Assembly (NCBI GenBank): GCA_947629325.1
Contig: CANRDE010000005.1
Span: forward strand, 1 to 58,017
DNA length: 58,017 nucleotides
Direction of reading: 5' to 3'
Origin: an uncultured Bacilli bacterium
Lineage (GTDB): Bacteria > Bacillota_I > Bacilli_A > RF39 > UBA660
Part shown: one piece after another, positions 2,132-10,470 of the stretch
Layout of the letters: the number at the start of each line of letters is the position of its first letter
Position numbering within the stretch: the stretch's first letter is position 1
The notes under the pieces: model-generated
What the model was told of the DNA's origin: nothing
Database searches by the model: none
The model's input: the letters and a program-made list of their open reading frames with translations, nothing else
Made by a program: the position numbers and the translations under genes

Positions 2132-2656
2132 CTAATATTGTTTTATAAATTTCTTTTTTAAAGCTTTTTTATTACCTTTAATATCAAATCTATATATAGC
2201 AATTAATACAAATATTAATTCTATTATAGTAGCTATTAAACCTACTATTGCATAAACACTTATACTATAAACTATAAATAATAAACAAGAAATTACTTCG
2301 ACTATTCTTGTAATTTTTAAACTATCTTGCCATAAAGCTATAGTATATAATATTACGGCAATACTAGGTAAAATACTAACTAAATCAGTATAAAAAATAA
2401 TTGATATGATTACCATTATCAAAATAATGATAACTGAGCAAGCAATATTTTTACTTTTACTAAAAAGAATATTCCTAATTATAGTTGTTAAATTAATTAA
2501 ACAACCGATTGGTGCCCCTAAAAACAAATATTGTAAGGCAAAAAATATACTTGAAAATATTTGTAATCTTAATAATCTGTTCTTTTCATTTGTTTGAAAA
2601 CTAATTATTAAAATTATTAAAGCCATTAAGCCCATTAATTGACCAAGCCAAAACAT
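2132..2656 (-). CDS. YgjV-type inner membrane protein
   Basis: This 174-residue protein has about five hydrophobic segments. It has the family pattern near the N terminus: a G-Q-hydrophobic helix, SFQTNEKNRLLRLQ, then ALQYLFLGAPIGCLINL and an Arg in IIRNILF. This matches the YgjV family (PF10688), whose function is unknown. The C terminus is Lys-rich and cytoplasmic. It lies between pnuC and the MBL-fold gene on the same strand, so the three may be co-transcribed. Confidence 0.7.
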   Translation of the reverse strand: MFWLGQLMGLMALIILIISFQTNEKNRLLRLQIFSSIFFALQYLFLGAPIGCLINLTTIIRNILFSKSKNIACSVIIILIMVIISIIFYTDLVSILPSIAVILYTIALWQDSLKITRIVEVISCLLFIVYSISVYAIVGLIATIIELIFVLIAIYRFDIKGNKKALKKKFIKQY

Positions 2657-2685: not shown

Positions 2686-3336
2686 CTAATTATTATTTTT
2701 ATTTTTTTTAATCCATTTATATAATCCATAAATATTTATTAATAAATATCCTATTGAAACTAGTAGCATCATTAATGAATTAGGGCCTTTATTAACAAAA
2801 CTTATTAACCATATAAATAAGTCTATACTATTATTAAATAACCAAATTATCCAACATTCTTGAAATCTTAAATTCATAAGTATTATTCCACATAAATTAA
2901 TAATATTACTACTAGAATCTAAAAAAGCTAAGTTTTGGGTTGGAATTTTAGATAATAATAGCCCTAATAAAACACTGCCAACTATACAACTACTAACTAT
3001 AATAATGGAATTTTTAAACGTAAATTTTCTTATCTTTACTTCTTTTTTTTCATCTTGTATCTTATTTCAACTTATATAACCTTGAATTTGAGATGGAAAA
3101 TATATCAGTAATGATAATATTGCCATTGCATATAAACCATTTATATAACTAACATAAGCACTTAATAAACAATATAGAGCACCATAAATATAATTATAAG
3201 TCTTACCTATACTAGCATAATATGAATTTAAAAGTCCACTTGCCAGAATTATAGTTCCTAAAATATAATCTTTTGATATAATTCCACATATAATAGAAAA
3301 AACTATTATTAAAATTGTTATAATTTTATTTCTCAT
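2686..3336 (-). pseudogene. pnuC: PnuC-type vitamin/nucleoside transporter, interrupted by one in-frame TGA
   Basis: Two fragments (3336-3067, 89 residues; and 3066-2686) lie in the same frame and together give 217 codons, about the usual PnuC length. The only interruption is TGA at 3069-3067. The first part ends QIQGYIS and the next codons read NK, so the TGA falls where PnuC proteins have a conserved Trp (GWxxWKKN-like). PnuC carries nicotinamide riboside or related vitamins across the membrane, and the predicted helices fit. It is either a fresh nonsense mutation or a UGA read through as Trp. No other lesion is visible, so decay is recent or absent. Confidence 0.75.
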
Positions 3337-3344
3337 AAATAATT

Positions 3345-3530
3345 CTACTTCTTAGTTGCCCCAGCATGTTCAAATTGAGATCCATTCTGGTTTATTATTT
3401 CTATTATTTTAGCATCTGCTAATTTCAAATTTTCTTGAAATTCATCAATTGTTTTTTGACTACAATAATTTTTAATAAAATTATATATAGTTTCTGCAGC
3501 CTTATCCATTTTATCCTTATTTTCTCTCAT
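3345..3530 (-). CDS. Small hypothetical protein upstream of pnuC
   Basis: This 61-residue, charged, mostly helical protein starts at an ATG behind a strong AGGAGGTTAC site. It is separated from the pnuC start by 8 bases, so the two are probably one transcript. I do not recognise the family. It has no signal peptide or membrane segment. The good ribosome-binding site is the main reason to treat it as real. Confidence 0.55.
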   Translation of the reverse strand: MRENKDKMDKAAETIYNFIKNYCSQKTIDEFQENLKLADAKIIEIINQNGSQFEHAGATKK

Positions 3531-8740: not shown

Positions 8741-9628
8741 TTATATATTCTTATAAATGGGCTGTCTCAAATGATTGTTTTTAGTTCTTTCTATATATTG
8801 CACAAAACAAGTCATATGAGGGTTTAAAAAATTTATATTAGTTGTAAAATCAATAAATGGACTCTTTTTTAATATTTTAGATTTTTTTATTTCCGTATAT
8901 AATTTATATTTCTTGGCTAAAGATACTTTACCAACAAAATATAATTTTTTATCTCTTAATTCTCCTAAATACAAAGTAATACTTTCATTTTTGTTTTTAT
9001 CAGAATAGCCACCAATCACAAATTTTTCCTGTTTAAAATTTTTGATTTTAAGCCAAGAAGCAGTTCTAGTATTTATATTATATAAACTTCTTTTTTCCTT
9101 AGCTACAATTCCTTCCAATCCTAATTTCTTAATGCTTTGAAATAGGGCTTTACCATTTTCTTCAACATAGTTGGTTTTTATAAATACATCATTGTCTTTT
9201 ATGGTGGCTAATATTTTCTTTCTAGCTAATAAACTTAAATTAGTTAAATCTTTATTTTGATAAATAATATCAAAACACATAAAAATAATGGGATTTTCTT
9301 GACTTTGAGTATTTATTTTCGTTTTATTTTTTAAATGTGTTCTTTCCTGAAGCTTACCAAAAGACGGCAAATTATTATTAAAAGCCACTATTTCTCCATC
9401 AAAAATAGTTTTAGCTTTTACTAATTTACTTATTTTTTGTAATTCTGGAAATAAATTCGTAATATCTTGTTTATTTCTAGTTTGCACTATTACTTTTTCC
9501 GAAGTAGCAAATATTATAGCTCTTATACCATCAAATTTTACTTCAAATAAATAATCTTTATTATTAAATGGTTTTTCTACTTCTTTAAGAAGCATTGGCT
9601 TCCAATTTTTATTTTGCCATATATTCAT
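8741..9628 (-). CDS. ATP-dependent DNA ligase, stand-alone LigD-type ligase module
   Basis: This 295-residue protein has the nucleotidyltransferase motif I EVKFDGIRA at about residues 28-36 (adenylated Lys in KFDG), then GEIVAF, MCFDIIY, GLEGIVAKEK and WLKIKNF as motifs III-V, and a short OB-fold C terminus. It has no polymerase or nuclease domain, so it is a minimal LigD-type ligase. Its ATG overlaps the Ku stop (ATGA), which shows translational coupling and a joint role in non-homologous end joining. Confidence 0.9.
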   Translation of the reverse strand: MNIWQNKNWKPMLLKEVEKPFNNKDYLFEVKFDGIRAIIFATSEKVIVQTRNKQDITNLFPELQKISKLVKAKTIFDGEIVAFNNNLPSFGKLQERTHLKNKTKINTQSQENPIIFMCFDIIYQNKDLTNLSLLARKKILATIKDNDVFIKTNYVEENGKALFQSIKKLGLEGIVAKEKRSLYNINTRTASWLKIKNFKQEKFVIGGYSDKNKNESITLYLGELRDKKLYFVGKVSLAKKYKLYTEIKKSKILKKSPFIDFTTNINFLNPHMTCFVQYIERTKNNHLRQPIYKNI

Positions 9629-10374
9629 GATTTTTTCTTCAAACTCTTTTCTAAAGCTTCTAATAAATTATTTATTTGTTCCTTATTTTTTCTCTTTGTT
9701 TTTTTAATTTCTTTCCCATTTAATTTATCGTCTATCGCTTCCTTGATATTATTTTGATATTCATCATGGTATTTATCAGGTTCAAATTTTCCTTTCCACT
9801 CCTCGATTAATTTAATAGCTAAATTTAATTCTTTATCATTTACTTTGCCTTCTATTTCTTCTTCTGGAAGCATAATTTCTTCTTTAAAAAATAAGGTGGT
9901 CATAATTATTCCTACATTACTAAATCTTAAAATACAATAATAAAATTTATTTCCTAACACTGTTTTAGCTAAACCTACCATTTGGGTTTTCTTCAAAGCT
10001 TCGCAAAATAAATTATATGCCTTATTAGTTTTCTCTGTTTTTAAAATATAACTTTTTTCAAAATAAACCGGATCAATATCTTTTATCTTTAGAAAAGCAA
10101 TTATTTCTATTTCATGCTCGTTTTCTGGCTTTAATTTATCTAAATCTTCTTTAGGAAAAGTGATATACTTATCATTTTCATACTCATAGCCTTTAATAAT
10201 ATCTTTTTCTTTAACTTGTTTTTTACAATGATTACAATATTTAATGTATTGAATTCGATTTAGACAAGCTTTATGCAATTGATTAAAAGATGTATCATTA
10301 TTCTTAATGACAGGATTCATGACTATAGGAATATTTACTAAGCCAAAAGAAATATTATTATGAATGTTAGGCAT
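9625..10374 (-). CDS. ku: Ku-type DNA end-binding protein
   Basis: The 249-residue product shows the bacterial Ku core: SFGLVNIPI near the N terminus, LHKACLNRIQYIKYCNHC, then EKSYIL and GLAKTVLGNKFYYCILR. The C terminus is Lys-rich (KKTKRKNKEQ), as in Ku tails that bind DNA and recruit ligase. A longer frame begins at a GTG at 10383, but that GTG is part of the GAGGTG ribosome site. The ATG at 10374 is the better start. The stop codon TGA overlaps the ligase ATG. Confidence 0.9.
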   Translation of the reverse strand: MPNIHNNISFGLVNIPIVMNPVIKNNDTSFNQLHKACLNRIQYIKYCNHCKKQVKEKDIIKGYEYENDKYITFPKEDLDKLKPENEHEIEIIAFLKIKDIDPVYFEKSYILKTEKTNKAYNLFCEALKKTQMVGLAKTVLGNKFYYCILRFSNVGIIMTTLFFKEEIMLPEEEIEGKVNDKELNLAIKLIEEWKGKFEPDKYHDEYQNNIKEAIDDKLNGKEIKKTKRKNKEQINNLLEALEKSLKKKS

Positions 10375-10470
10375 TAAGTTCACCTCAAAAATATTATTGG
10401 CTTTTTTTCTAAATTTATGTGTAATTATCTTTCATATAAAGATTATTTTTTGCTATAATATAAATGAATA

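Follow-up and report, generated by a model that had tools for sequence, protein, structure and literature searches.

A TGA codon at an invariant tryptophan position of pnuC in an uncultured Bacilli bacterium, a probable recent nonsense mutation under the standard genetic code

The interrupted pnuC frame and its surroundings

The window analysed here, a stretch of 58,017 nucleotides, represents one contig of a genome assembly of an uncultured Bacilli bacterium (883,844 bases, 34 contigs, completeness estimated at 82.5%) and has a GC content of 26.5%. The minus strand of positions 2686 to 3336 carries a full-length pnuC frame of 216 codons plus a terminal TAG, whose translation contains exactly one internal stop. 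This agrees with the original prediction, which described a frame of the usual PnuC length with a sole TGA at 3069-3067. The locus comprises the following features.

2686..3336, minus strand: pnuC frame (nicotinamide riboside transporter family) with one stop, matching PF04973, TIGR01528, and 4QTN; probable recent pseudogene or null allele
3067..3069, minus strand: in-frame TGA, codon 90, at a position where homologues have an invariant Trp (translation and alignment)
3067..3336, minus strand: 89-aa N-terminal fragment that translation under the standard code should yield; it matches PnuC weakly, with 23 bits
2686..3066, minus strand: downstream 126 codons of PnuC, with no in-frame ATG, GTG, or TTG before 2877
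2132..2656, minus strand: intact Imp-YgjV family membrane protein (PF10688, 94 bits), downstream neighbour of pnuC
3345..3530, minus strand: 61-aa ORF without a family match, upstream neighbour of pnuC

With the stop read as Trp, the product matches the Pfam family NMN_transporter (PF04973; residues 26-210 of 216) with 101.1 bits at a cut-off of 27.3 and TIGR01528 with 94.6 bits at a cut-off of 42.45, and the solved PnuC structure 4QTN is matched at 2e-24. The N-terminal and C-terminal halves of the frame each match PnuC on their own. A separate start of the C-terminal half near the stop was considered and is ruled out by the position of the first in-frame ATG, GTG, or TTG codon, which lies only at 2877. 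The closest intact relatives share 86% identity, and the column of codon 90 holds Trp in 11 of 11 aligned homologues and likewise in 4QTN, as had been claimed for this position; the surrounding sequence, QIQGYIS[W]NK, is close to the predicted GWxxWKKN-like motif. The frame thus resembles PnuC in its length, in its match to the full profile, and in the Trp that homologues carry at the stop position, but it differs by the in-frame TGA, and with the standard code supported by the evidence given below, translation should yield 89 residues only.

Beyond the 61-aa ORF, GNAT, CutA, and HD-domain genes follow upstream, and the neighbourhood of pnuC is mostly unconserved among relatives. A search for RNA elements returned no Rfam match anywhere in the window. 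Elsewhere in the window, adjoining genes for Ku and an ATP-dependent DNA ligase (8741-10383) form a two-gene NHEJ pair in this reduced, low-GC Bacilli genome.

Decoding of UGA in the source genome

The low GC content, the small genome, and a TGA at a Trp codon are features that the present case shares with the UGA=Trp code of Mycoplasmatales and Entomoplasmatales (NCBI table 4). In contrast to that code, however, the source genome has retained the release factor RF2 together with its frameshift autoregulation: prfB was found with the canonical frameshift signal GGGAGGTCACTTTGAC (CTT-TGA-C). This site works by RF2 acting at UGA in competition with the +1 frameshift, and its presence is therefore evidence against a recoding of UGA. 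Among 38 congeneric genomes, prfB was matched in all 38 (in 33 of them above the cut-off), and the frameshift site was present in each of the five congener loci examined.

The sole tRNA-Trp recovered from the source genome (82.5% complete) has the anticodon CCA. Since the tRNA set of the source genome is incomplete, the search for a tRNA-Trp(UCA) was extended to the 38 congeners, where a pattern for a UCA anticodon arm gave 26 hits, none of which contains a tRNA according to ARAGORN. As a control, the matching CCA pattern retrieved tRNA-Trp from most of the 38 genomes. Of the two genes that the original prediction proposed to look for, prfB is thus present, whereas of tRNA-Trp only the CCA form was found. 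On the same grounds, i.e., RF2 present and no tRNA-Trp(UCA), a Codetta screen has judged UGA to be a stop codon in RF39 genomes that had been misfiled as Mycoplasmatales (PMC8629427).

The alignment of 307 reference ORFs from two congeners (ca. 1.06 Mb) to 372 kb of DNA of the source genome, i.e., about 42% of the genome including the window, revealed 248 TGG codons and no genuine TGA at positions with Trp in the congener. This final scan was based on non-overlapping reference ORFs, because antisense shadow ORFs had made the initial scan noisy. Two candidates for a TGA at a Trp position were rejected: one (L067, position 4893) falls within another ORF, on its antisense strand, and has several stops close by, the other lies (L063, position 11691) in a leader upstream of an ATG with a ribosome-binding site. 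The genome-wide check for further TGA codons of this kind that had been suggested consequently came out negative for the sampled part. In the window itself, TGA ends 5 of the 55 kept ORFs, namely, pnuC and four ordinary genes, in line with the earlier statement that TGA is otherwise a stop here; the TGA of Ku (9625-10383), for example, overlaps with the beginning of the adjacent ligase gene.

Loss and decay of pnuC in related genomes

A comparison with other genomes at this codon, as originally recommended, was based on 71 pnuC relatives retrieved by an alignment query; a contig scan with a single protein yielded no confirmed ones. The nearest named relatives are metagenome-assembled genomes (MAGs) of uncultured gut Bacilli, many of them from samples labelled 'Lapin'. 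Relatives have Trp at codon 90, and a TGA occurs at this codon in none of the related loci from named MAGs that include it. The lesion is accordingly missing from the intact orthologues (W90 in the 11 aligned homologues), and the stop is private to the source genome.

Among the congeners, pnuC is patchy, being present in 4 of the 38 genomes and set in a mostly unconserved neighbourhood; it is frequently lost or moved between lineages. Within the bacterial family, it has been broken independently and in various ways. Related copies are interrupted by single TAA stops (L092 and L131) or by frameshifts (L117, L126, L142, and L143), and truncated remnants were found in four further cases (L139 and L145-L147). 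An apparent TGA as a Trp codon in another relative (G047/L043) was rejected as a wrong-frame reading after a frameshift. The single-stop cases, two with TGA and two with TAA, show no preference for TGA, albeit in small numbers. A gene that is so patchy and so repeatedly broken implies that the salvage of nicotinamide riboside via PnuC is dispensable in many members of this gut Bacilli family.

The second TGA case stems from the same bacterial family (L039, G127:C2:4602-5231). Its pnuC frame is intact save for a single TGA, which lies at another conserved Trp, W176, and its genome encodes two release factors, one of them with a UGA frameshift site. As a separate observation, a short contig stretch holds two distinct pnuC paralogues, with about 30% identity to each other, in three of the relatives (L082, L083, and L087).

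Age of the lesion and competing explanations

A TGA at a Trp codon needs no special explanation, as it is expected from ordinary mutation: 10 of the 15 transitions that create a stop in the pnuC of the window affect TGG codons, five leading to TGA and five to TAG. Apart from the TGA, the frame is intact. The dN/dS ratio between the interrupted copy and its two nearest intact counterparts is 0.12-0.15, compared to 0.08-0.11 among intact copies, and it is similar on both sides of the stop. Changes unique to the branch of the window amounted to 21 nonsynonymous and 21 synonymous ones, versus 17 and 32 on two sister branches together, an excess that is not significant (Fisher p = 0.20). The intact frame and the low dN/dS ratio indicate that either the lesion is recent relative to the divergence of the species, or the gene is still in use at some level, or the assembly is in error. 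The intact frame fits a very recent mutation, but it fits equally well a functional gene with some level of readthrough or an error in the consensus.

Our preferred explanation, which we consider probable, is a recent nonsense mutation under the standard code in a dispensable and frequently lost transporter gene. A TGG-to-TGA change at codon 90 would have occurred recently in a lineage of gut Bacilli with a low GC content, a reduced genome, and the standard code. RF2 would terminate translation at the UGA, and the resulting fragment of 89 residues should not be capable of transport. As pnuC is dispensable and often lost in the family, the broken gene would simply be a copy that has not yet decayed further. 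The case is alike to known bacterial in-frame nonsense alleles and pseudogenes (e.g., PMC7918605) in having a single stop, an otherwise intact frame, a low dN/dS ratio, and a dispensable gene, without any notable difference. Of the three readings offered originally, the one-base mutation of TGG to TGA is best supported.

The alternative that survives best, although we regard it as unlikely, is that the tRNA-Trp(CCA) misreads UGA at a few per cent, so that small amounts of full-length PnuC arise and the gene retains a weak function. The frame past the stop has not decayed and its dN/dS ratio is low, and the tRNA-Trp of the source genome, as read from its sequence, has a U11-A24 pair as well as two G-U pairs topping the anticodon stem. 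The A24 is the state found in the Hirsh UGA suppressor of Escherichia coli. It has been reported that bacterial in-frame stops often do not mark pseudogenes by dN/dS (PMC7918605), and that a tRNA-Trp(CCA) with an anticodon stem shortened to 4 bp promotes readthrough of UGA (PMC13092985). The stem of the source tRNA, however, still has five pairs. Based on the Hirsh-type A24 and the short-stem effect, low-level reading of the UGA in pnuC may be regarded as chemically plausible, but the same tRNA-Trp occurs in two congeners, and its anticodon loop and the arm that follows recur unchanged in most of the genus, which points to a background property rather than an adaptation to the stop in pnuC. 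Moreover, no other sampled gene depends on readthrough, and the stop is confined to the source genome. At low efficiency, the UGA readthrough proposed in the original prediction is plausible but unlikely. The tRNA-Trp(CCA) in question (L022, 1501-1574) has its G-U pairs at the two outer positions of the anticodon stem, and the copies in the two congeners are identical. In a broader version of the idea, the tRNA-Trp(CCA) of the whole genus, with its A24 and its G-U-capped stem, would decode UGA at a low but useful level, and the stop would be tolerated for this reason; pnuC, like similar genes interrupted by one TGA at a Trp (L039 as the second example), would stay weakly functional. This version strikes us as very improbable.

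It is also rather improbable that the base stems from an error in the assembly or the consensus, or that the metagenome assembly has fixed a minor allele, while the gene is intact in the population. The assembly is fragmented into 34 contigs and incomplete, the nearest relatives are metagenome assemblies themselves, and the lesion affects a single base in a pnuC that is otherwise intact. Nevertheless, short-read assemblies of adequate depth rarely contain erroneous single-base substitutions, and several kinds of lesion have broken pnuC in relatives; we infer that the base is real.

An early step of UGA-to-Trp reassignment in the lineage can be dismissed, since the low GC content, the genome size of about 0.9 Mb, the rarity of TGA stops (5 of 55 ORFs, pnuC included), and the TGA at another pnuC Trp in L039 are outweighed by RF2 with its UGA-dependent frameshift site in both genomes, the tRNA-Trp(CCA) as the only form found, the 248 TGG codons versus no genuine TGA in the sampled DNA, the genuine gene ends at TGA, the lesions of pnuC that are not specific for TGA, and the verdict of the Codetta screen on RF39 (PMC8629427). 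The original prediction had itself named contrary observations, i.e., Trp codons in close relatives, or the lack of any other such TGA together with that of a suppressor tRNA, and within the reach of in silico tests these have been made, for other TGA codons in the sampled part of the genome. Taken alone, a single TGA in a frame of a low-GC, Mollicutes-like genome, even at a conserved Trp, is no evidence of a change of the code. The case of the window is best read as an ordinary nonsense mutation under the standard code and is mainly of value as a negative example.

A further gene remnant may be present in the same window. In the segment 48863-49204, a SIMPL (DUF541) protein is represented by its C-terminal part (positions 114-200 of the 205 in the profile); the N-terminal part is lacking, and the segment overlaps the end of another frame.
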